Origin: Actinoallomurus spadix
Lineage (GTDB): Bacteria > Actinomycetota > Actinomycetes > Streptosporangiales > Streptosporangiaceae
Length of the DNA: 64,000 nucleotides
Direction: 5' to 3'
Assembly: GCF_024055725.1 (NCBI RefSeq)
Contig: NZ_JAMXMX010000001.1
Location: 310,001 to 374,000, forward strand
The notes under the pieces were generated by a model, which worked only from the letters and a program-made list of their open reading frames with translations, did not search any database and had not been told where the DNA came from. Shown piece by piece: positions 42,275 through 56,570 of this stretch. Numbering within the stretch: position 1 is the first letter of the stretch; each line of letters starts with the position of its first letter. A program made the position numbers and the translations under genes.

Positions 42275-42877
42275 TCAGCCGAGAGCCCCCGCGCGGGCGG
42301 CGGCCAGGGCGGCGTTCGCGGCCCGGTCGGCGACCGCCGCGTCGACCGGCTCCCGGCTGACGAACAGCCGGTAGTAGATGGGCGCCACCGCCGCCCGTAC
42401 GACCTCGGCCGGGTCGGTGCCGGCCGGCAGTTCGCCCCGGGCGACGGCGCGGGTCACGATCCGCGCGGCCTGCTCGTGCCGGGAGGCGAAGAAGCCGGCG
42501 AGCGCCACGGCGGCGGCGGAGTCCTGCATGGCGGCGGCGATGAACGCGGCCGAGACCGGGCCGTCGTCCGGATCGGTGAAACCGGTCACCACCAGACGGG
42601 TGAGGGCGCGCAGGTCCTCTTCCGCCGAACCGGTGTCGGGGATCGGCCAGGGCTCCTCGCTCGCCATCTCCAGTGCGTCCGCGATCAGGCCCTCGACGCC
42701 GCCCCAGCGCCGGTAGACGGTGGTCTTGTGCACCCCGGAGCGGGCGGCGACGCCGTCGACCGTCAGTGCGGCGTACCCCTTCTCGGCGAGCTCGCTCAGG
42801 GTGGCCGCCCGGACGGCGGCACGGACACGGGCGCTCCGGCCGCCCGGTCGCCGGCCGAGGCCATCGGTGATCGTCAT
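42275..42877 (-). CDS. TetR family regulator
   Basis: 200 residues from the ATG at 42877; a longer start at 42904 is possible. The helix-turn-helix lies at residues ~20-65 (ATLSELAEKGYAALTVDGVA, then SGVHKTTVYRRWGG). The C-terminal domain matches the TetR_C_11-like group. It is divergent from the ABC-F gene, with the palindrome at 42924 between. It therefore probably represses the ABC-F gene and itself. Confidence 0.9.
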   Translation of the reverse strand: MTITDGLGRRPGGRSARVRAAVRAATLSELAEKGYAALTVDGVAARSGVHKTTVYRRWGGVEGLIADALEMASEEPWPIPDTGSAEEDLRALTRLVVTGFTDPDDGPVSAAFIAAAMQDSAAAVALAGFFASRHEQAARIVTRAVARGELPAGTDPAEVVRAAVAPIYYRLFVSREPVDAAVADRAANAALAAARAGALG

Positions 42878-42923
42878 CGGAAATCCCGTTGCGCTCGGGA
42901 ACACTGGTCTGTCATCATCCTAA

Positions 42924-42939
42924 CGCAACACAAGTTGCG
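42924..42939. promoter_or_regulatory. Operator between TetR and ABC-F genes
   Basis: CGCAACACAAGTTGCG is a perfect 6-4-6 palindrome 46 bp from the TetR start. Its position between a TetR gene and its divergent neighbour makes it the likely repressor site. Confidence 0.7.
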
Positions 42940-43027
42940 ATAAGTCCCCCGCAGAGGAGAGCAGTCGCCATGGGCCTGACCCCGAACACCGCGAAATCCC
43001 GCTCACGCCGTGTATCGGAGGTCCGTT

Positions 43028-44620
43028 TTGTCAACTCAGCTCACCCTGCGGAACGTCGCAAAGTCCTACGGTGATCACCGCGTCCTCGATGATGTCTCGT
43101 TCTCCGTACGGCCCGGGGAGCGTGCCGGGCTCGTCGGGGAGAACGGCTCCGGCAAGTCGACGCTGCTGCGGCTGATGGCCGGCGTCGAAGCGCCGGACGA
43201 CGGCGACGTGACCGTCATGGCCGACGGTGGCGCCGGTCACCTCGGGCAGACGAGGATCGTGCCGCCCGGGGACACCGTCCAGCAGGCCATCGACGCGGCC
43301 CTCGCCGACCTGCGCGCGGTGGAGCGCCGGATGCGCGAACTCGAGGCCGACCTCACCGAGGACCGGTTCGCCGAGTACGCCGCGCTGCGGGCGTCGTACG
43401 AGGCCCGGGGCGGTTACGAGGCCGACGCCCGCGTCGACAAGGCGATCCACGGGCTCGGTCTCGCCCACGTGGAGCGGGACCGTCCGCTCGGCACTCTGTC
43501 CGGCGGCGAGGAGGCCCGGCTCGCGCTGGCCTGCGTGCTGGCGGCGTCCCCGGAGATCCTGCTGCTCGACGAGCCCACCAACCATCTCGACGAGCCGGCG
43601 ATGACCTGGCTGGAGGACCGGCTCCGCGCCCACCACGGCACGGTCGTCGTGGTCTCCCACGACCGGCTCTTCCTCGACCGCGTCGCGACCGTGATCTACG
43701 AGGTCGAGGACGGGGCCGTGACGCGCTTCGGCGGCGGGTACTCCGGGTTCCTCGCCGCGAAGGCGGCCGCCCGTGTCCGCTGGGAGCAGGCATACGCGGC
43801 CTGGTGCGAGGAGGTCGAACGCGTCGAGACGCACGCGGCGACCACCGCCCGCAGGGTCGCGCCCGGCCGGCCCATGAAGGACCGCAATAAACCCGCCTAC
43901 GACCGGGACGCCGGGCGCGTCCAGAGCTCGGTCGCCGGCCGGGTGCGTCAGGCGCAGGAGCGCCTCCGGCAGCTGCGGGCGAACCCGGTGCCCAGGCCGC
44001 CCGACCCGTTGCGGTTCGATGGGCTGTTCGGCGGGGGAGCGGGCGAAGGAACGCTCGCCGAACTGCGTGAGGCGACGGTCGGCGACCGGCTGCGCGGGGT
44101 CTCCCTCACCGTGACGGCCGGTGACCACCTGCTGGTCCACGGCCCGAATGGCGCGGGCAAGTCCACCCTGCTCCGCGTACTCGCCGGAGAGGAACCCGAT
44201 TCCGGGACGGTGCTGCGGCGCGGCCGGGTGGGGTACCTGCCGCAGGAGGTCGGCTTCGCCGATCCGCGCCGGTCCGCGCTGGCGGTGTTCGCCGACAGCC
44301 GGCCCGGTCACCCGGACGAGCACCGCGAGCGGCTGCTTGCGTACGGCCTGTTCCGCCCGGAGGCCCTGGACACGCCGGTCGGCGGGTTGTCGGTCGGCCA
44401 GCGGCGGCGGCTGGCCCTGGCCCGGCTGCTGGCGGCGGAGCACGATCTCCTGCTGCTCGACGAGCCGACCAACCATCTGTCCCTCGTCCTGGTCGAGGAG
44501 CTGGAGACGGCACTCGCCGACTACCGGGGTGCGCTGGTCGTCGTCTCTCACGACCGGACGCTGCGGGACCGCTTCCCCGGCGCGCGGCTGGAGATGCGTG
44601 AGGGACGTATCGCCGGGTGA
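43028..44620 (+). CDS. ABC-F family ATPase, ribosome-protection type
   Basis: 530 residues from a TTG with CGGAGGT 6 bp upstream. Two ABC domains sit in tandem: GENGSGKSTLL with LSGGEEARLALA and LLLDEPTNHLD, then GPNGAGKSTLL with LSVGQRRRLALA and LLLDEPTNHLS. They are joined by a ~90-residue interdomain linker rich in Arg and Glu. There are no membrane helices. ABC-F proteins displace antibiotics from, or otherwise act on, the ribosome. A divergent TetR gene with operator suggests inducible self-protection or resistance. No antibiotic cluster is visible here. Confidence 0.92.
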   Translation: MSTQLTLRNVAKSYGDHRVLDDVSFSVRPGERAGLVGENGSGKSTLLRLMAGVEAPDDGDVTVMADGGAGHLGQTRIVPPGDTVQQAIDAALADLRAVERRMRELEADLTEDRFAEYAALRASYEARGGYEADARVDKAIHGLGLAHVERDRPLGTLSGGEEARLALACVLAASPEILLLDEPTNHLDEPAMTWLEDRLRAHHGTVVVVSHDRLFLDRVATVIYEVEDGAVTRFGGGYSGFLAAKAAARVRWEQAYAAWCEEVERVETHAATTARRVAPGRPMKDRNKPAYDRDAGRVQSSVAGRVRQAQERLRQLRANPVPRPPDPLRFDGLFGGGAGEGTLAELREATVGDRLRGVSLTVTAGDHLLVHGPNGAGKSTLLRVLAGEEPDSGTVLRRGRVGYLPQEVGFADPRRSALAVFADSRPGHPDEHRERLLAYGLFRPEALDTPVGGLSVGQRRRLALARLLAAEHDLLLLDEPTNHLSLVLVEELETALADYRGALVVVSHDRTLRDRFPGARLEMREGRIAG

Positions 44621-46961: not shown

Positions 46962-48320
46962 CGTTCGTGCCCAGCAGGGGGACCTCACGGACGAAGATCC
47001 TCGGCCTTGGCGTTCCGGTATTGGTCCCGGATCTCGGGGAGTGGTTGGAAACCGGCTGATTCGTAGGTGGCGACGGCGCCGACATCGGAGCTCGGGGTGT
47101 ACGCGAGCGCGCTCGACGAACCCAACTCCTGGAGTGCGGCCGCTGCGGCGATGGTGATCGTCGTGCCGTAGCCATCTAGTAGCCCGATGGCGAGAATCCG
47201 TCCGTCCCGGCTTCACGTCCGGACCGCCGCGGCCGTCGCCTCCGCACCGAACCGCCAGAACCAGCCTAGATCCCCCGGATGCAGTTGCCACGGCGCGCCG
47301 TCGTACTGCCACTGCCGCAGGACGCCCACAGTTTCGCTCAACCCGTTGACGCCCGGCTTGCCCAACTCGATCGCCATACCCCCGGATAACACACCACCGC
47401 GCCGACCGTCCGCACCCGGTCTTTCGGCCGACACTCGTCGTGGAACGGCTGTAGCCGGGACCTTCACAGTCGTCTTATGCGTCGTCTTATGCGACCCGGC
47501 CTATCGCCGGGTGGACTGCGCTGGGCAGCGGCTGAGCCGACACTTGACAGTGTCGGGATCAGAAGATTCCCCGACATCCCCGAACCGAGGCCCGCACCCC
47601 TCGGGGAAACCGGATATCCGGCGACCGAACATGCCCTTGGACGGGCTGTTCGGCGCGTGGATTGACGTAGCTCCCCAGCATCGATCACCAGCGGCCTACC
47701 TTGCGGCTCGCCGGGCTTTCAGGAGTTCCGGGCCGTGACCACCGGCCTCGACGCGGCTGATCATTTGGGGGACCGCCGGCGCGCGGCCGTCTCAGGGACG
47801 GACCCCGGGCCGGTCGACGACTCCGGCGGCGACCACGGCGTCTGGGGGAGGGGAGGCCCCGGTGCCGGGTGTATGGCTCACATCCATGGATGGTCCCCTG
47901 CGGGGGACGGGTCATCCTGGTCTTAACCGGACCCCGACGTGCCCTTCACGCTGAGCCGAGAGGCGGGTCGGTGAACACGATCCTTCAGCACTTCCCTAGC
48001 CTTACTGCGTAAAGGTCGTCGCTTAATGCAAAACTAACTCATAGAAGTACTTCATACACCCTCAACAAAGAGAAACCGCGGCTTCGACAGCAACCGCCCA
48101 CCGGGGGTAAGGGGGCAGGCCAAGTAAGCCGGAAAGGGGCAACGACCGTCGGGTGGGGTCCGAGCTGCACGGCACAGCCGCGGATGCACAGATCGGCTTC
48201 GGAAATCTCGAAGACGACATGACGCCCTGGGAAGAGGGACTTGCGCGTGCCGTTCGTTCCGCTAAGTGAGTGGTTCACGCCTCCCGAGCAGGAGTAGGCC
48301 CCGTATGGGAAGAGGAGCGC
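46962..48320. other. 1.36-kb scar with gene remnants and no intact gene
   Basis: This stretch holds the GNAT remnant at 46985-47377 and AT-richer DNA around 47980-48070. It ends with a short + strand frame (48162-48269, ending NLEDDMTPWEEGLARAVRSAK) that looks like the C-terminus of a lost protein. The rest has no supported features. It borders the DAO-type fragment and marks the left edge of the next cluster. Confidence 0.55.
46985..47377 (-). pseudogene. GNAT acetyltransferase remnant with in-frame stop
   Basis: Read from the ATG at 47377, which follows a G-rich CCGGGGGT, the frame gives a GNAT-like N-terminus (GVLRQWQYDGAPWQLHPGDL) and stops at a TGA at 47213-47215. Reading through gives SRDGRILAIGLLDG and then a normal GNAT end with SSDVGAVATYESAGF, to the stop at 46985. 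The stop sits where the family has a tryptophan (TGG), so one base change broke it. It is short (131 codons), so parts may also be lost. Confidence 0.6.
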
Positions 48321-48800
48321 ATGTCACCAATTGCCGTCGTGGGTGCGGGAATCGTAGGTGCCTCGGTGGCCTACCACTTGGCGACTCGGGGTCTGCCGGT
48401 GACCTTGATCGACCGGGTACCGTCATCGGCAGCGGGAGTGACCGGCGATTCGTTTGCGTGGATCGGCGGCTCGGGCGGTGATTGGCCCGGCGGGGCCGAG
48501 GACCTGCGTGGGATGGTCCTGGCCGACTACCGGCGCCTTGAAGGAGAGCTGCCCGGGGTGAGGGTGCGCTGGACGGGCTCACTGGCATGGGGCGATGTCT
48601 CGAAACTCCCTGGGAAGGGCGCAGGACTGGGTCCAGGCCGACGCTGGGTGGGGCGCAGCGAGATCGCGGCGCTAGAACCGAACCTCCCTAGCCCCTTGAG
48701 CGGGCCGTCTACGCGAGGAGGTCCGCCACGAGCCGCCGCGCGTACGAGGCGTCCAGCCGACCGGGGCGGAACAGGATGCGGTACATCATCGGTGCGATGA
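48321..48800 (+). pseudogene. Truncated DAO-type FAD-dependent oxidoreductase
   Basis: Starts at an ATG with AGAGGAG upstream. The first ~125 codons are a D-amino-acid-oxidase-like N-terminus, with AVVGAGIVGASVAYHLATRG and a conserved EIAALEPNL segment. Similarity fades by ~48690; a +1 frame continues a few residues (ERAVYAR) to ~48720. The frame then runs antisense through the TetR gene to a stop at 48800. About two thirds of the enzyme is missing, so it is not functional. Confidence 0.75.
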
Positions 48801-49260
48801 CGTGGTCGATGACCGACTCGACGTCCGGGGCCTTCTCCCCGCGTTCGGCCGCGCGGGCCAGGACCACGCCGACCTGCTCGGCGGCGTATGCCGAGCACTG
48901 GCCGGCATTGCTGCCGTCCGGATCGCCGAGCAGGGCGTCGCGGATGTAGGCACGGCCCGGGGGAGAGGCCATCTCGTCGAGGAACTGCTCGGCCCAGGCC
49001 TCAAGATCCGACGCCAGATCTCCCCGGTCCTCCGGTGCCGCGTCGGGCCGCAGGCGCTCGACCGCCACGTCCGACAGCAACTGCTGCAGGTCCCGCCAGC
49101 GACGATAGATCGTCGACGGAGTGACACCGGCGCGTGCGGCGACCAGTGGCACCGTCAGCGCGTCGCGGCCCACTTCGGCCTCGAGTTCGCGTACGGCGGT
49201 GTGCACCGCGTGCTGGACCCTGGCGCTGCGCCCGCCGGGACGCACCATCGTGCGACTCAT
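48709..49260 (-). CDS. TetR family regulator, probable controller of the amidase/MFS cluster
   Basis: 183 residues from the ATG at 49260. The helix-turn-helix is at ~25-65 (DALTVPLVAARAGVTPSTIY, then RRWRDLQQLL). The ligand domain is TetR_C_11-like. Its promoter holds a 25-bp element (49271-49295) resembling each arm of the inverted repeat at 50960-51028. It therefore likely represses itself, the amidase operon and the MFS operon. Confidence 0.9.
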   Translation of the reverse strand: MSRTMVRPGGRSARVQHAVHTAVRELEAEVGRDALTVPLVAARAGVTPSTIYRRWRDLQQLLSDVAVERLRPDAAPEDRGDLASDLEAWAEQFLDEMASPPGRAYIRDALLGDPDGSNAGQCSAYAAEQVGVVLARAAERGEKAPDVESVIDHVIAPMMYRILFRPGRLDASYARRLVADLLA

Positions 49261-49270
49261 GTCTTCCACT

Positions 49271-49295
49271 CTAAAGCAAAGACGTAGCTTCTAAG
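49271..49295. promoter_or_regulatory. Candidate TetR operator, similar to the 23-bp repeat arms
   Basis: The element begins CTAAAGCAAAGACG and continues with TAGCTTC. An arm of the repeat at 50960-51028 reads CTAACGCAAACGC then TTAGCTTTTG. The shared CTAANGCAAA and TAGCTT parts suggest the same protein binds both. Confidence 0.5.
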
Positions 49296-49339
49296 TGTGC
49301 GGCGCCGGCCGGTGGAGGGCGGCCGGCGCACGGGCGACC

Positions 49340-50719
49340 TCACGCCACCGGCGCGAGTTCGCGGGCGGGCTCGGTCCGTTCGTACGCGTGGCCCACGCGC
49401 AAGAGCGCGGCCTCTCCGAAGGGCCGTCCGAGCACCTGCATGCCGATCGGCATCCCCTGCCGGTCGTGGCCGACCGGCAGGGAGAGTGAGGGCACCCCGG
49501 TGATGTTGGCCGGGGCCGAGAGGCGCACGTAGGCGTCGGAGACACTCTCGACCGTGCCATCGGGCCAGGTGAGGGATTCTTCGCCGGCCCGTACCGCGGT
49601 CGCCGGCACCGCGGGCGCGGCGATCACGTCGACCTCCTGCAGCATCCGCGTCCACGTCCGCCGCATGAGCGTCCGGGCCCGCTGGGCGCGCAGGTAGTCC
49701 CCGGCGGTCATCAGCGCGCCCGCTTCGAGGAGGACGCGGACGTCCGCCGCGTACAGTCCGGCGGCCTCCCGCAGGGTCCTCTCGTGGTAGGCGGTGGCCT
49801 CGGGAACCATCAGTCCCCACTGGATCGCCTGGATGTAGCGGGTCATCGGAATCTCGACCTCGACGAGCCGTGCACCGAGGGTCTCGAGCCGGTCGATGGC
49901 GCGCCGGACCGCGGCCTCGACGTCGGGGGCGACGCGGTCGAAGTAGTAGTTGCGCGGCACACCGACGCGCAGTCCCGACAGATCGCCCTCGGAGGGCGGC
50001 CGACGGTCCGGCAGGCCGGCGGGGTCGCGAGGATCATGCCCGGTCAGGATGGGCAGTACGAGGGCCGCGTCCTCGACGGTGCGCGTGATGGGGCCGACGT
50101 GATCCAGGGACCAGGACAGTGATGTCACGCCGCGTCGGGGAACGAGGCCGTACGTCGGCTTGAGGCCGACCACTCCGTTCAGCGCGGCCGGCACCCGGAT
50201 CGAACCACCGGTGTCGGTTCCCAGGGCGAAGGTCGCGGTACCCGCCGCCACGGCGACGGCCGATCCGCCGCTGGAGCCGCCGGCGATCCGGTCCCGGTCC
50301 CAGGCGTTGTGCGTCTGTGGCGTGGTGAGTCCGTAGGCGAACTCGTGGGTGTGGGTCTTGCCGACCAGGACGGCGCCGGCCGCCGTAAGGCGCGCGGCGA
50401 CCGCACTGTCGGTCTCCGCGCGGTGACCGGCTCGTACGCGGGAACTCGCCGTGGTCGCCGTGTCGGCGACGTCGATCAGGTCCTTCAGCCCCACCGGGAT
50501 CCCGTGGAGCGGGCTACGGAGGCGACCGGCCGCGGCGTCGCGTTCGGCCTCGCGTGCGGATCGGCGTGCCCGTTCCGCCGTCACCGTGACGTATGCCCGC
50601 AGGCGCGGCTCCACCTGCTCGATGCGGTCGAGCACCGAGTCCACCAGCTCGACAGGGGACACGCGCCGAGTTCGTATCGCGTCCGCGGCGGCGGCGAGGG
50701 ACAGCTCATACGGCTGCAT
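49340..50719 (-). CDS. Amidase (amidase signature family, AtzE/GatA-like)
   Basis: 459 residues. The Ser-cisSer-Lys set is visible: Lys in GLKDLIDV, cis-Ser in GGSSGGSAVAVA, and nucleophile Ser in TDTGGSIRVPAA. The start lies inside the end of the small AtzG-like gene (14-bp overlap), with GGAGAGGAG upstream. A dedicated small subunit suggests an AtzE-like hydrolase that needs it for stability. The substrate, probably an amide or carbamoyl compound, is unknown. It is transcribed away from the 23-bp inverted repeat. Confidence 0.93.
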   Translation of the reverse strand: MQPYELSLAAAADAIRTRRVSPVELVDSVLDRIEQVEPRLRAYVTVTAERARRSAREAERDAAAGRLRSPLHGIPVGLKDLIDVADTATTASSRVRAGHRAETDSAVAARLTAAGAVLVGKTHTHEFAYGLTTPQTHNAWDRDRIAGGSSGGSAVAVAAGTATFALGTDTGGSIRVPAALNGVVGLKPTYGLVPRRGVTSLSWSLDHVGPITRTVEDAALVLPILTGHDPRDPAGLPDRRPPSEGDLSGLRVGVPRNYYFDRVAPDVEAAVRRAIDRLETLGARLVEVEIPMTRYIQAIQWGLMVPEATAYHERTLREAAGLYAADVRVLLEAGALMTAGDYLRAQRARTLMRRTWTRMLQEVDVIAAPAVPATAVRAGEESLTWPDGTVESVSDAYVRLSAPANITGVPSLSLPVGHDRQGMPIGMQVLGRPFGEAALLRVGHAYERTEPARELAPVA

Positions 50720-50915
50720 CGTGGTTCTCCTCTCCCATCCCGTACGCGGCGGCGGGCGGGGTGTCTCCGAAATCCAGTTCCTGCAGGACCGAGACGACCG
50801 AGTGGATGTGGTCGGCGATGACCGCGACCTGGCTGTGGCGGTCGCCCGCCAGGGGGAGCCCGGCGCGGGCAGCCCATCGGGCGGCCTCTGGCGGCGTCAG
50901 TTCAGTGGCGGACAC
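50706..50915 (-). CDS. AtzG/DUF4089-like small subunit
   Basis: 69 residues from a GTG with AGGAGG 7 bp upstream. The short helical protein (VAVIADHIHSVVSVLQELDF) matches the DUF4089/AtzG pattern, a GatC-like companion of AtzE-type amidases. It overlaps the amidase start by 14 bp. It is probably the first gene of that operon and required for the amidase to fold or be stable (from the AtzG-AtzE precedent). Confidence 0.8.
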   Translation of the reverse strand: MSATELTPPEAARWAARAGLPLAGDRHSQVAVIADHIHSVVSVLQELDFGDTPPAAAYGMGEENHDAAV

Positions 50916-50959
50916 GAAGGTTCCTCCTGTTCAAGCCGGAGCGGGATGCGATGCTCCAC

Positions 50960-51028
50960 CAAAAGCTAAGCGTTTGCGTTAGCCCACGATAGGAATTAAC
51001 GTGACCTAACGCAAACGCTTAGCTTTTG
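50960..51028. promoter_or_regulatory. Perfect 23-bp inverted repeat between divergent amidase and MFS operons
   Basis: Arms at 50960-50982 and 51006-51028 are exact complements across a 23-nt spacer. Each contains AAGCTAAGCGTTTGCG. It lies 44 bp from the AtzG start and 19 bp from the MFS start, so both promoters fall on it. It is a strong bidirectional operator, most likely for the TetR at 48709. Confidence 0.85.
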
Positions 51029-51047
51029 TGTCTCGTGGAGGAGTCTC

Positions 51048-52313
51048 ATGTCCAGCGCCTCACCAGGCGCGCTTGCACGGTGCGGCGGCTCACCGGTCCG
51101 CACCCGACGGGCGAACCGTACCCGGCGGGCGCACCGCGCGTCCTTCGTCCTGGACACCTCGATCCTGGTCGCCCTCCTGGCCGCGTCCAGCGCGCCGACG
51201 CCGCTCTACCCCCACTACCAGCATCAGTGGGGTCTGTCCGCCCTGACCATCACGCTGGTGTTCAGCGCCTACTCCCTGACGTTGCTGCTGGTCCTGCTGA
51301 TCACCGGAGCGCTCTCCGACCACCTGGGGCGGCGTCCCGTCCTGGGGGGTGCGCTGGTGCTGGCGGCCGCGGCCATGGCGCTGCTCGCCGCAGCGGGCGG
51401 TTCCAACGCGCTGATCGCCGCCCGGATCCTGCAGGGAGCGGCCACGGCCGCGGCCACCAGTGCGGCGGGCGCCGCCCTGCTCGACCTTGAAGATCCCGCG
51501 CGCCCGGGCAGGTCCGCCCTGACCAACGGCATCGCCCCCGTAGCGGGCATGGCCGTCGGCGTGCTCGCCTCGACGCTTCTGATCCGCCTCGCGCCGGATC
51601 CCACGGTGACCGTGTACGTGCTGCTGGCGGCGTTGTTCGCCGCCCAGGCCGTCGCGGTCGCGTTCACCACGGAGACGGCCCACCGGCACGCCGGCGCGTG
51701 GCGCTCTCTGCGCCCGCACCTGTCCGTCCCGTCCTCGGCCCGCCGCGCCCTGCGGCTCACGGGCGCCGGGATCGCCGCGGTCTGGGCGCTGGGCGGCTTC
51801 TACTCCTCTCTCGGGCCGGCGCTGGTCCGCCTGGTGTCCCCCGGCGGCCCCGGGGCGGCCGGCGGCATGATCTTCTTCACCGTCACCGCCATGGCGGCGT
51901 TCACCGTGTGGACGGTGCGGCGTACGGCGCCGGCCGTCGCGGCGACGGCCGGATGCGCGGCCGTCGTACCCGCCGCGGCGCTGACTGTCGGAAGTCTGCA
52001 CGGTGGCGGCCTGCCCGCCCTGTTCGGTGGGGCGGCCATGGCCGGCATCGCCTTCGGCGCCGTGTCCCAAGGGGCGTTGCGCATCACGCTCACCGCGCTC
52101 TCCGAACGAGACCGCGCCGCGACCCTGGCCGCCTACTACGTGCTCAGCTACCTGTCGATGAGCCTTCCCGCCATCGCCGCGGGTGCCGCCGCTGGACGGT
52201 ACGGGCTGGGGACGGCATCCCACACTTACGCCGCGGCGGCCGCCCTCCTCGCCATCGTGGCGGTGGCGGCGCTCACGGTCTCACGACGGAGCCCGATCGA
52301 TGAATCCCGATGA
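51048..52313 (+). CDS. MFS transporter
   Basis: 421 residues with about twelve membrane helices and a GGAGGAG site. Motif A reads SDHLGRRPVLGG and a central loop follows. It looks like a single-substrate exporter or importer of the AraJ/CynX type; direction is not shown. It is divergent from the amidase genes across the 23-bp inverted repeat and should be co-regulated. The metallo-beta-lactamase-fold gene follows 19 bp later and is probably in the same transcript. Confidence 0.9.
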   Translation: MSSASPGALARCGGSPVRTRRANRTRRAHRASFVLDTSILVALLAASSAPTPLYPHYQHQWGLSALTITLVFSAYSLTLLLVLLITGALSDHLGRRPVLGGALVLAAAAMALLAAAGGSNALIAARILQGAATAAATSAAGAALLDLEDPARPGRSALTNGIAPVAGMAVGVLASTLLIRLAPDPTVTVYVLLAALFAAQAVAVAFTTETAHRHAGAWRSLRPHLSVPSSARRALRLTGAGIAAVWALGGFYSSLGPALVRLVSPGGPGAAGGMIFFTVTAMAAFTVWTVRRTAPAVAATAGCAAVVPAAALTVGSLHGGGLPALFGGAAMAGIAFGAVSQGALRITLTALSERDRAATLAAYYVLSYLSMSLPAIAAGAAAGRYGLGTASHTYAAAAALLAIVAVAALTVSRRSPIDESR

Positions 52314-52332
52314 AAGAAGGAACCGACAGAGC

Positions 52333-53277
52333 ATGCGGACACCACCGCTCAAGGAATCCAACGACGCCGCCACCACCGCCTCATGGGCTGTGGGCGACAT
52401 CACCGTCCACCGTGTCGACGAGATCCCGCTGCCGCCCGCGACCGGCCCTTGGCTGCTGCCCGACGCCATCCCGGACGTGGTCACACGCCAGAACTGGCTG
52501 CGTCCCCACTTCGCCGACGACCGGGGCATCCTGCGCATCGACAGCCACAGTTTCGCCTTCTCGGTGGGCGGGCTCCGCGTCCTCGTGGACACCGGCATCG
52601 GCAACGGCAAGACGCGGGCGAACCCGGCGTGGCACGACCTGAGGACCGACTACCTCGCGCGCCTCAGTGACGCGGGCTTCTCCCCGGAGTCCGTGGACCT
52701 GGTCATCCTCACCCATCTGCACACCGACCACGTCGGCTGGAACACCCGCGAAGAGCAAGGCGTATGGGTACCCACCTTCCCCCGCGCCCGCTATGTCGCC
52801 TCCCGGGTCGAGTGGGAGTTCTGGGCCGGTTACGACATGGACGAGCCGCGACGACAGATGTTCCGCGACTCGGTGCACCCGGTCGATGACGCGGGGATGC
52901 TCGACCTCGTCGACGTACCCGCCGACGGTGCCGAGGTCGCCCCCGGCCTGCGCCTGCTGTCCACGCCTGGCCACACCCCCGGTCACATCTCCGTGCAGCT
53001 GAGCAGTCACGGCGAAACGGCGCTGATCACGGGCGACTGCGTCCACCACCCCGTCCAGTTCGCCCACCCCGCCATCGGCAGCTGCGTCGACATCGACCCG
53101 GAACAGGCCGAGGCCACCCGCCGCTCCCTGCTCGACGCGCTCGCGGGCACGAACACCCTGGTCCTCGGCACCCACTTCCCACCGCCTACCGCCGGTCGCG
53201 TGGTCGGCCACGAGGACGGCCACCGCCTGATACCGGTCCCCCCGGTCCATGGCCGCACCGACCAGGGCGTGCACTGA
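52333..53277 (+). CDS. Metallo-beta-lactamase-fold hydrolase
   Basis: 314 residues from the ATG at 52333, with GAAGGA 11 bp upstream; an ATG at 52300 overlapping the MFS end is the alternative. The zinc motif is THLHTDHVGW, with further ligands in TPGHTPGH and ITGDCVHHPVQ. It resembles lactonase-type or general MBL hydrolases. With the amidase and transporter it may open or detoxify the same compound class (inference). No signal peptide is visible. Confidence 0.92.
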   Translation: MRTPPLKESNDAATTASWAVGDITVHRVDEIPLPPATGPWLLPDAIPDVVTRQNWLRPHFADDRGILRIDSHSFAFSVGGLRVLVDTGIGNGKTRANPAWHDLRTDYLARLSDAGFSPESVDLVILTHLHTDHVGWNTREEQGVWVPTFPRARYVASRVEWEFWAGYDMDEPRRQMFRDSVHPVDDAGMLDLVDVPADGAEVAPGLRLLSTPGHTPGHISVQLSSHGETALITGDCVHHPVQFAHPAIGSCVDIDPEQAEATRRSLLDALAGTNTLVLGTHFPPPTAGRVVGHEDGHRLIPVPPVHGRTDQGVH

Positions 53278-53534
53278 AACGGGCATCGCTCACGCGGGCT
53301 GCGCCCCTGGCGCAGAGCCGGGAGTCCGGGGCCGTCCCGGGCTCCCTGCTCCGGCGAAGGCGACGATCTCCGGGAGGCCCGGCTCGTAGCCGTCACCGGT
53401 GTTCACGTGCAAGGTGGGGACGGCCCGTGGGGAGCAATGGAACGAGAACGTGCCGTGCGATTCCAGGTGTTTGCAACCGTCAACCTGGTTTACGGTCTAG
53501 ACAACCGCATTGTCTATCTGAGGAGTGATCCTTC
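53278..53534. other. Intergenic region with an unassigned - strand reading-frame remnant
   Basis: On the - strand 53290-53497 an open stretch encodes a protein-like sequence (SHGTFSFHCSPRAVPTLHVN, then TGDGYEPGLPEIVAFAG) with no start codon. It looks like a gene end but I do not recognise it. The + strand side holds the AhpD-like gene promoter and the operator at 53498-53516. Confidence 0.35.
53498..53516. promoter_or_regulatory. TetR-type operator before the AhpD-like gene
   Basis: TAGACAACCGCATTGTCTA is a perfect 7-5-7 palindrome ending 18 bp before the ATG. Its TAGAC/GTCTA ends match the palindrome before the TetR gene at 55977. Confidence 0.75.
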
Positions 53535-54089
53535 ATGACGTTCGTCGACCACACGATCGAGTCCGCGCCGCCCGCGGCCCGCCGTTCCATGGAGGCCGTC
53601 GCGAAGAACTTCGGCTACCTGCCCGCGGCCGTCACCCGGCTCGCCACCTCGCCGCAGTTGCTGGACGGTTTCCTGCGGGCGAACGGCCTGTTCGAGAGCA
53701 CTTCCCTCCACCCGCTCGCCCGGGAGGTGCTGGTCATGACGATGGCCACCCGGAACGGCTGTCACGCCTGTGTCGCCCTGCACTCGGCCAAGCTGACCTC
53801 CCTCGGCGCGGACCCCGGCCTCATCGCGGCGCTGCGCGAGAGCCGCCCGCTGGAGGACGCGCGGCTGGAGGCGATGCGGTGCTTCACGCTGGCGGTGCTC
53901 GCCACCTCGGGCGCGGTCTCCCCGCAGGACATGCGGGACTTCCTCGGTCATGGCTACACGCGGCAGAACGCCCTGGAGGTCGTCCTCGGCATCGGCGCGT
54001 ACACGATGTCGACTCTGGCCAACCGGATGACGGACGCTCCGCTGGATGAGCCGCTCCAGCCGTTCGCGTGGAGCGGGCACGCCGCCTGA
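53535..54089 (+). CDS. Carboxymuconolactone decarboxylase/AhpD-like protein
   Basis: 184 residues with a GAGGAG site. The AhpD-like core contains the CxxC in NGCHACVALHSAKL (about residues 76-79) with the partner His. Such proteins are alkylhydroperoxidase-like reductases or decarboxylases; the CxxC favours peroxidase or disulfide activity. It has its own TetR-type operator and converges on the SDR-hydrolase fusion. Shared TAGAC operators suggest the same TetR controls both. Confidence 0.9.
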   Translation: MTFVDHTIESAPPAARRSMEAVAKNFGYLPAAVTRLATSPQLLDGFLRANGLFESTSLHPLAREVLVMTMATRNGCHACVALHSAKLTSLGADPGLIAALRESRPLEDARLEAMRCFTLAVLATSGAVSPQDMRDFLGHGYTRQNALEVVLGIGAYTMSTLANRMTDAPLDEPLQPFAWSGHAA

Positions 54090-54112
54090 ACCGGCCCGGG
54101 CCGGTTCAGGCT
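54085..54112. terminator. Perfect 28-bp palindrome at the AhpD-like stop
   Basis: The palindrome begins GCCTGAACCGGCCC and continues with its exact complement; it includes the TGA stop. It lies between convergent genes and forms a 14-bp stem in RNA from either strand, so a bidirectional terminator is likely. Confidence 0.7.
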
Positions 54113-54132
54113 CTTCACACCGGCGAGCGTCC

Positions 54133-55980
54133 TCAGGCGTTCGTGATCTTCAGGCCGCCAGGCGTGGTCGGGGAGGTGGCGTGTTCGCGGACGGCCCGGG
54201 CCAAATCGTCCGGGTGGGTCAGCTGCGGGTGGTGGCCCGCGCCGGGGATGGTCGTCACGGTGACCCGGGGAAGCGTGTCCACCAGGGCTCGCCCTTCGGG
54301 GGTAAGCGGATCGTCCGAGCCCACGATGATGTGCACGCGTCCTGGGTACCGTCGCAGCGTGGCCTGGAGCTCCTCACGCCATCGCGGCTGCGCGGTGGCG
54401 GCCAGGAGCCGGGCGGCCGTGGTGGCCGCCGCGCCGCGGCGCAGATCGGTCACGCTCGAGCGGAGCGCGGTCGCGGGCGCCGTGCCCCCGGTGAGCCGGT
54501 CGGTCAGCGCTTCGGGGGTGACGCGGCTCAGGTACCAGCGGGTCAGCGGCGTCCAGCGGGCCGGGCGGGCGGGGCGTGCCTGCAGGAAGAACGGTGCTAC
54601 GAGGGTGAGCCGCTCGACCGTGCCGGGATGGGCGGCGGCGGCTTCGACGGCGGCCGCGGCGCCGATGGAGTGGCCTACCAGGTGGCGGGCGCCGGTCTCG
54701 GTCACCAGCGCGGTGAGCCAGGCCGGCCAGTCGCCGTGGTGTCCCGCGCTCATTCCCAGCCCGGGCAGGTCGACGGCGCGGGCGTGGTCCATGGCCGTGA
54801 TGACCGGCGCCCAGGTGTCGGCGTTGACCGGGAGGCCCGGGAGCACCACCGTGGGTGTGCCCGGTTCGCCGAGTTCGAAGGTCCGTACGCCGCCGGTCGT
54901 GATGAATCGGCGGTCGCCGGTGGGGGCGTCTCCGAAGCGGTGCGCGGCCAGGTGGTCGGCCCAGCGGTGGATCGTCGGGGCGGTGTCCGGCATGGTCAGC
55001 CCGTGGCGGGCGGCGAAGGCGTGCGCCGAGGTGGTGGGGTAGCGGTCTTCGGACAGGAATGTCAGGGTCTCCGGGTCGGCCTTGGTGAGTCGTGGTGGCA
55101 GGCGCTTGAGCAGGGCCACCGGGATCCGTGCGCGGGGTGTTGTGACCCGGTAGTGCTCGGCGACGAGGGCGAGCAGGGAGGGCAGGGCGGGGGTGTCGTC
55201 GTCCAGCAGCCAGTACGCGGTGTGCTCGGCGTCGTCGTCCAGTGGGAGGAGGGTCATGAACCGGGCGAGGTGGTCGACGGCGATGACGGGTACGAACGTC
55301 CGCGCGTTGCCGGGTACCGCTGCGAGGGAGCCGTGCCAGAGGTCCTTCAGCGTGGAGGCGAGCCCGAGGTACTGGTCGGACTCGCCGGTGGCGCTGTCGC
55401 CGATGACGCTGGCGGGGTTGACGATGGACCAGGGGACGTTCAGCCGGTTCGCCTCCGCCTGGAAGACGGCGTCCGCTTCGACCTTCGACGCCTCGTACGC
55501 GCCGAGGGCCTGGTAGGTCTCCCGTCTGCGCTGTTCGTTCCATGGGGCGGGGTCCTGTCCGCCCACGCGGTATCCCGAGACGTGGACGAGGCGGCGCAGG
55601 TGTGGCAGCCGGGCCGCGAAGGCGACGATCGCGCGGACGCTGTCGACGTTGGCGTGGCGGGCCTCGTCCGCCGACATCCCGAAGCGGTAGGCGCCGGCGC
55701 AGTTGTAGATCTCGGTGACGTCCTGGTGGTCGCCTTGGATCAGTGCGGGGTCGGTGAAGTCGGTGCGGAGGTCGGCCGGGGTCGTGTCGTGTCCGTGCTC
55801 GTGCAGCCATCGGGTGAGCCGCCGGTGGGAGGCGGGGTTCCGGGTGGCCGTGCTCACCCGGACGCCGGCGCGGCCGAGCGCGAGGACCAGGTGGCGTCCG
55901 ATGAAGCCGGTCGCGCCGAAGACCAGCGCGTGCCGGTCCGCGGCGTTCGTGTTCGGCGTGTTCGTGTTCACGGCGTTCAT
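54133..55980 (-). CDS. Extended SDR epimerase/reductase fused to an alpha/beta hydrolase
   Basis: 615 residues. Residues ~15-345 are an extended short-chain dehydrogenase: VFGATGFIGRHLVLAL, an atypical HVSGYRVGG Ser region, and Tyr-Lys in YEASKVEAD. Residues ~365-600 are an alpha/beta hydrolase: VVLPGLPVNADTW, nucleophile Ser in VGHSIGAAAAV, His in GAGHHPQLTHP. A reductase acting on a carbonyl or glycosyl substrate followed by hydrolysis in one chain is unusual. The start overlaps the upstream TetR gene (ATGA). The TetR likely represses it. Confidence 0.9.
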   Translation of the reverse strand: MNAVNTNTPNTNAADRHALVFGATGFIGRHLVLALGRAGVRVSTATRNPASHRRLTRWLHEHGHDTTPADLRTDFTDPALIQGDHQDVTEIYNCAGAYRFGMSADEARHANVDSVRAIVAFAARLPHLRRLVHVSGYRVGGQDPAPWNEQRRRETYQALGAYEASKVEADAVFQAEANRLNVPWSIVNPASVIGDSATGESDQYLGLASTLKDLWHGSLAAVPGNARTFVPVIAVDHLARFMTLLPLDDDAEHTAYWLLDDDTPALPSLLALVAEHYRVTTPRARIPVALLKRLPPRLTKADPETLTFLSEDRYPTTSAHAFAARHGLTMPDTAPTIHRWADHLAAHRFGDAPTGDRRFITTGGVRTFELGEPGTPTVVLPGLPVNADTWAPVITAMDHARAVDLPGLGMSAGHHGDWPAWLTALVTETGARHLVGHSIGAAAAVEAAAAHPGTVERLTLVAPFFLQARPARPARWTPLTRWYLSRVTPEALTDRLTGGTAPATALRSSVTDLRRGAAATTAARLLAATAQPRWREELQATLRRYPGRVHIIVGSDDPLTPEGRALVDTLPRVTVTTIPGAGHHPQLTHPDDLARAVREHATSPTTPGGLKITNA

Positions 55981-56570
55981 GACGCGGCCTTAGTGCTCTG
56001 GTCGAGGAGGGTGGCGAGGGTCTCGGCGGCGCAGCGCAGTGGTTCGGCCGAGCGCTGGGCGCGCGACACGATCATCGCGCCCTCGACCATGCTGACGGCG
56101 GCCGTCGCCGTGGAGCGGGCGGCGGGGCGTGGCCGGCCGTGGGCGACCAGGTACTCGGTCAGGGGCGCGATCCAGGACTCGAAGGCGTCCGCGCAGGCGT
56201 CCCGGAGCCGCTGACTGTGCGTTCCCATCTCGAGGGTCACCACGGAGACGGGGCATCCGAGTGTGAAGTCGCTGTCGGTGAGCATTCCGGCGAGCACGTC
56301 GATGACGTGGCGGACGACCTCGCCCGGTGTCGCCGACGGTAGTGCGGAGTCGCTGAGGAGGGTGCCGAAGCGGGCGGCGGCGAGTCCGACGGCCTGCTCT
56401 CCGAGGGCCTCCTTGCCCTGGGGGAAGTGGAAGTACAGCGATCCTTTAGGCGCGCCGGCGTGTTCGACCACGGCGTTGAGCCCTGTGCCGCTGTATCCGT
56501 GGCGCTGGATGAGTTCGAGCATCGATTCGACCAGCCGTGCGCTGGTCTCGGCTCCCTTGGTTCCGGCCAT
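55977..56570 (-). CDS. TetR family regulator of the SDR-hydrolase operon
   Basis: 197 residues. The helix-turn-helix is at ~15-60 (SMLELIQRHGYSGTGLNAVV, then APKGSLYFHFPQGKEALG), close to the AcrR/QacR-like TetR group. It is coupled to the SDR-hydrolase gene by a 4-bp overlap. Its promoter contains TAGACCAGTCTA (56581-56592). It likely also acts at the AhpD-like promoter (53498), which has the same half-sites. Confidence 0.92.
   Translation of the reverse strand: MAGTKGAETSARLVESMLELIQRHGYSGTGLNAVVEHAGAPKGSLYFHFPQGKEALGEQAVGLAAARFGTLLSDSALPSATPGEVVRHVIDVLAGMLTDSDFTLGCPVSVVTLEMGTHSQRLRDACADAFESWIAPLTEYLVAHGRPRPAARSTATAAVSMVEGAMIVSRAQRSAEPLRCAAETLATLLDQSTKAAS

Follow-up and report, generated by a model that had tools for sequence, protein, structure and literature searches.

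A predicted TetR operator pair in the mirror-symmetric divergent promoter of an amidase and a transporter operon of Actinoallomurus spadix

A perfect inverted repeat separates two divergent operons, one for an amidase and one for a transporter, in the window analysed here (the whole stretch of 64 000 nucleotides). We consider it very probable that this repeat is an operator pair for the TetR-family protein encoded at 48709–49260, located within a mirror-symmetric divergent promoter, that a third operator serves autorepression of tetR, and that a small molecule releases all three units. Comparison of loci strongly supports a putative regulon of three promoters under this TetR. From the same comparison we infer that the protein binds the motif and that binding represses. 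The initial annotation had already proposed one TetR acting on three promoters. Its central idea is right in substance, since the same motif is present at all three candidate sites and recurs at tetR orthologues, even where the amidase is absent. The weight that it gave to the perfection of the repeat is not borne out.

The repeat and the genes around it

The left arm (50960–50982, CAAAAGCTAAGCGTTTGCGTTAG) and the right arm (51006–51028), its exact reverse complement, enclose a spacer of 23 nt. They lie in the 132-bp gap between the start of a small gene (50915, minus strand) and that of an MFS transporter gene (51048, plus strand), so the arm length, spacer and gap first reported are all confirmed in the sequence. 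When mismatches are allowed, the symmetry runs into the spacer and the arms reach 32 nt at 91%. The longest perfect inverted-repeat arm in the window (loop 4–60) is 23, compared to 11–15 in 20 first-order Markov shuffles. The 69-base element has a single occurrence in the whole 8.0-Mb genome (71 contigs).

Each arm is by itself a 10-3-10 pseudo-palindrome, TTAACGCAAA-N3-TTTGCGTTAA, which is found again next to orthologues of the nearby tetR. The left arm is here called operator O1 (plus strand) and the right arm, its inverted copy, operator O2 (minus strand). A similar element had been pointed out at the tetR promoter (49271–49295); it is real, and its conserved part covers 23 bp (49271–49293, minus strand), hereafter operator O3. 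At two mismatches or fewer, a pattern drafted after sight of the arms and of the tetR site matches three places in the 8.0-Mb genome, which are both arms and the tetR site. Three mismatches are needed for two other places in the genome to match.

The sites were scored with a matrix made from 15 sites of seven distant loci only, at which tetR is divergent to an MFS gene (tetR//MFS loci) and the TetR proteins are 52–64% identical. With this matrix the three sites of the window rank 1–3 in the 64 kb, with 30.2 bits for O1, 30.2 for O2 and 25.4 for O3. The next non-overlapping site has 1.5 bits, and the highest score in 100 shuffles was 15.1 bits.

Elsewhere in the window, a palindrome, TAACGCAACACAAGTTGCGATAA (42921–42943), lies between divergent TetR-like (42275–42904, minus strand) and ABC-F-like ATPase (43010–44620, plus strand) genes, both named by eye. 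It is distantly similar to the studied operator (1.5 bits) and is likely the own operator of the TetR-like gene.

Leftward of the repeat are the small gene (50706–50915, minus strand), encoding a conserved protein of 69 aa, and a gene for an amidase-signature hydrolase, AtzE/GatA-like (49340–50719, minus strand; Pfam). Rightward are genes for the MFS transporter (51048–52313, plus strand; Pfam) and an MBL-fold hydrolase, lactonase/organophosphatase-like (52333–53277, plus strand; Pfam). The amidase falls under the curated AtzE cut-off (TIGR02715 of NCBIfam, 322.5 bits vs 425.75) and is thus not an AtzE by this profile, and the MBL protein scores below all lactonase cut-offs. Among solved structures, the nearest relatives of the amidase are GatA, biuret hydrolase and others, and those of the MBL protein are organophosphorus hydrolase, methyl parathion hydrolase and lactonases. 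These relatives leave the substrate unfixed.

The 69-aa protein is 62–94% identical to the window's copy in 13 relatives. The initial annotation had called it AtzG. No Pfam family matches it at E up to 10, a comparison with the PDB gave nothing significant (best E 0.096), and a fold search (Foldseek) with a moderate model (mean pLDDT 67.9) was not significant either: six of the 11 weak matches are transamidosome chains (GatC, GatF and others), all at E of at least 5.7. Neither profile nor fold places it among the AtzG/GatC small subunits and, because it matches no Pfam family, ‘AtzG’ is a label by position. A CMD-domain (AhpD-like) gene downstream of the MBL gene (53535–54089) was considered as a member of the operon and dropped; no relative locus searched had a match for it, so it probably lies outside the conserved cluster.

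TetR and the conservation of its putative operators

The proposed repressor gene tetR (48709–49260, minus strand) encodes 183 aa. Pfam profiles place the protein in the TetR family (TetR_N, 33.8 bits for a cut-off of 24; TetR_C_11, 77.5 for a cut-off of 32), as do its recognition helix and its fold, the latter from a structure model of moderate confidence (mean pLDDT 68.6). The start is most likely the ATG at 49260 and not the GTG at 49269, because the matches of relatives begin nearby and the distance from the −10 box to the ATG is conserved. On the minus strand O3 ends in TTTAG, and the predicted tetR −10, TAGAGT (49273–49268, minus strand), overlaps this operator end. At 19 of the 21 loci inspected, a TANNNT spans the end of the operator a short way ahead of the ATG (L087 and L095 differ). 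Since the ATG at 49260 is only seven nt past the −10, the tetR mRNA is probably leaderless. The 3′ end of tetR is overlapped by a fragment of an FAD-dependent oxidoreductase (DAO) gene (48270–48800, 176 aa, profile positions 2–133 of 353), which looks like a truncated gene.

Loci of relatives were obtained by TetR searches of 297 family and 394 class genomes and by one MFS search of named genomes. Thirty-four larger stretches, together with L032–L034, were taken for comparison. The class-genome search matched 19 new genomes, from 16 of which stretches were used (not G463, G561 and G569). A fourth match of the MFS search, L035 (35% over 85 residues), was left out.

Twenty-one relatives carry tetR, the amidase gene, the MBL gene and, in whole or in part, the small gene; nine of the 21 also have the MFS gene. 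The second locus type, tetR//MFS without the amidase cluster, is represented by nine loci (L045–L051, L097 and L098). Both types have two copies of the motif in the intergenic region, spaced start to start by 46–47 bp in amidase clusters and by 44–50 bp in tetR//MFS loci. A search for the arm motif in relatives with the same genes, as the initial annotation had suggested, thus had a mixed outcome: the operator pair is kept in 20 of the 21 related amidase clusters, L041 having lost the second (right) operator O2, and the perfect repeat is found in none of the 20. Identity between the arms is 23/23 only in the window and 14–20/23 in these relatives, which speaks against the perfect repeat itself being a conserved switch. 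Judged by this pattern, the repeat is a set of two TetR-type operators, not one element, and the operators are identical here incidentally. As a pair, the arms are well conserved and would be essentially a classical bacterial switch.

Eleven loci from a single genus in another family (g85) were added once the matrix had been built. Every one of the ten complete loci has the pair, 46–47 bp apart, and a third site at tetR; the tetR sites score 14.4–35.7 bits. With the window and partial loci counted, a site of at least 14 bits adjoins the tetR start in 20 of 24 amidase-type loci. O3 is not recognizable in L042 (−15.2 bits) and is weak in L038 (9.3 bits), L041 (11.6 bits) and L090 (5.4 bits). Weak or single sites are found in L101 and L102.

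A pattern describing the half-site pair matched eight of the 297 family genomes, all of which belong to the 18 genomes that have a TetR orthologue (E<1e-50); the reversed control gave no match in the family genomes. The pattern misses ten of the 18 orthologue genomes. The hypergeometric value for the overlap, 3e-11, is not an independent p-value because some of these loci had served to draft the pattern.

Two residues of the recognition helix, T47 and S49, do not vary across the 34 TetR proteins of the motif-bearing group; in 14 more distant TetR proteins T47 is absent from all and S49 from 13. Best scores at the loci of these 14 range from −13.7 to 13.4 bits, and motif and helix do not separate the two groups perfectly because L020 (13.4 bits) and L021 (12.4 bits) carry moderately similar sites. 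A related motif of another form, GCAACGATCACTGC-like, stands at the more distant TetR//MFS loci L022, L023, L024 and L030, where residues of the recognition helix have changed as well. A second, more distant TetR//MFS pair in the closest relative's genome (L099; G166 contig 19, 66506–66546), with a TetR 41% identical, carries a related half-site pair and is one of the places that the half-site pattern matched.

A further locus departs from this arrangement. In L100 (G124 contig 197) the amidase gene and both operators are kept, the second with an indel, and neither tetR nor an MBL match stands beside them. In the same genome tetR//MFS is located on contig 235, separate from the amidase. Since no tetR adjoins them, this suggests that the L100 operators may be regulated in trans.

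Promoter architecture, proposed mechanism and alternative readings

The inner half of each operator, TTTGCKTTA, contains a −35-like hexamer, TTGCKT, and on both strands a TANNNT follows in the spacer after 17 or 18 nt. In the window, the predicted MFS-ward promoter (50974–51002, plus strand) consists of a −35 TTGCGT (50974–50979), 17 nt and a −10 TAACGT (50997–51002), with a start at ∼51009. The predicted leftward promoter of the small gene and the amidase gene (50986–51014, minus strand) consists of a −35 TTGCGT (51014–51009), 17 nt and a −10 TATCGT (50991–50986), with a start at ∼50979. Start sites were placed by consensus spacing only; the rightward one falls inside O2 and the leftward one inside O1. 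The mirror symmetry arises because each inner half-site holds the −35 of a predicted promoter whose −10 is in the spacer. By this geometry each operator touches both predicted promoters: O1 holds the MFS-ward −35 together with the predicted leftward start, and O2 holds the leftward −35 together with the predicted MFS-ward start.

The leftward −35/−10 layout is present in 21 of 21 amidase clusters and the rightward one in 20 of 21 (window included). L039, L041, L088, L100, L101 and L102 were left out of this count (partial, lost operator, weak sites or indels). In the tetR//MFS loci the MFS-ward −10 is found in 9/9 and the opposite −10 in 0/9. In L100, read by eye, the leftward boxes are retained and the rightward −10 is missing. 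The leftward −10 is thus found only where the amidase operon is present, and the rightward −10 is absent where the MBL gene is absent. Inner half-sites of the amidase clusters are nearer the consensus than outer ones (8.76 vs 7.05 of 10; Wilcoxon p 8e-8, a value that is too small because the loci are related and not independent); the difference is weaker in the tetR//MFS loci (p 0.07).

In the proposed mechanism, each of O1 and O2 would be occupied by one or more TetR dimers. O1 would cover the MFS-MBL −35 and the leftward start site and O2 the reverse, so that occupancy of the pair would lock both directions. Through the arm pair one repressor could probably shut two back-to-back promoters at once. 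O3 would cover the tetR −10, giving autorepression, and a small molecule would release TetR and switch on the three units together. As a guess, this inducer is probably an amide or lactone, either toxic or catabolic, that the enzymes and/or the transporter handle. A further proposal, to which we give even chances, is a ‘double lock’: each operator would block one promoter at its −35 and the other at its start site, hence each would touch both operons, and the two directions would appear or erode independently with the genes that they serve.

Perfect arms of 23 bp could also pair with each other, and a hairpin (bidirectional terminator, attenuator or cruciform) might then be the function of the repeat. 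Pairing between the arms is not kept in the 20 relatives, which speaks against this, and each arm retains the operator motif separately. The repeat moreover sits between divergent genes, where a terminator is unneeded, neither mRNA would carry both arms since the predicted starts are inside them, and no Rfam match was found in 48500–54200; we judge a hairpin extremely improbable. The perfection of the repeat would equally suit a mobile-element or recombination site, such as a terminal repeat or a recombinase target. Its single place in the genome, the lack of a match for the intergenic region in 72,556 plasmid records and, between orthologous genes, a conserved position, spacing and set of promoter boxes make that reading hardly credible.

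TetR-type operators cannot be assigned from sequence alone, and another regulator might bind them, for instance a TetR encoded in the window at 55977–56570 or at 42275–42904; the latter gene adjoins the vaguely similar palindrome at 42921–42943. We think this very unlikely, as the motif follows the orthologues of the 48709 TetR across genera, even without amidase and MBL genes, and is present at the promoter of that tetR itself. A role for TetR as activator or dual regulator instead of simple repressor would find some support in the overlap of the inner half-sites with the −35 region, which some activators also occupy. The sites, however, cover both promoters at the −35 and the predicted start, and tetR at its −10, which are classical positions for steric repression. 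Most studied TetR-family proteins are also repressors, according to the accessible part of PMC3511530, and we regard activation as highly improbable.

Relation to known systems and significance

The closest parallel is tetR/tetA of Tn10, where tetO1 and tetO2 overlap the promoters of two genes and provide autoregulation (as given in the accessible text of PMC3037858). Similarly, two operators overlap both predicted promoters here, in 20–21 of the 21 amidase clusters, the window among them. Unlike Tn10, both divergent units are structural operons and tetR is ∼1.7 kb away with a third operator of its own; the operators mirror each other and enclose the −35 boxes, and their motif is not that of Tn10. 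The window's tetR is also downstream of the amidase gene and not a divergent partner, which it is only in the tetR//MFS relatives.

Bidirectional promoters of Escherichia coli likewise use pseudo-symmetric sequence for divergent transcription, here with predicted elements, and include acrR/acrA with a TetR-family repressor (PMC12825309, accessible part). The common distances between starts named there are 18, 10 or 23 bp, whereas ∼30 bp is predicted here, and as far as that text goes the present arrangement differs in its separate −10 boxes and in an operator at each −35.

Ms6564, SCO5951 and SCO0332 are the nearest solved TetR proteins in sequence and fold, at only 19–28% identity to the window's TetR (structural alignment, moderate model). 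Ms6564 is described, in the available portion of PMC4150764, as forming a dimer of dimers on a 31-bp site. The pairing of a small gene with an amidase-signature gene recalls AtzE-AtzG and GatCA (PMC6219798, in the part accessible); the window's amidase differs by its score under the AtzE cut-off and the small protein by having no Pfam or significant structure match. In Streptomyces, 250 of 372 TetR-family genes are divergent to a neighbour (Ahn et al., PMC3511530, accessible part). The tetR of the window belongs to the remaining, less predictable group, and the operator led to its candidate targets. No paper describing the operator or the gene cluster was found in the open PMC literature.

The analysis assigns a putative operator motif and regulon to a subgroup of TetR_C_11 proteins across several actinomycete families, the named relatives being Actinoallomurus, Actinomadura and Streptomyces. 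This assignment would offer a direct route to the substrate, by a derepression screen. Amidase clusters and tetR//MFS loci together form a natural experiment on a bidirectional promoter that gains or loses directions. If the double lock is true, they would provide a natural series for how repressed bidirectional promoters arise and decay.
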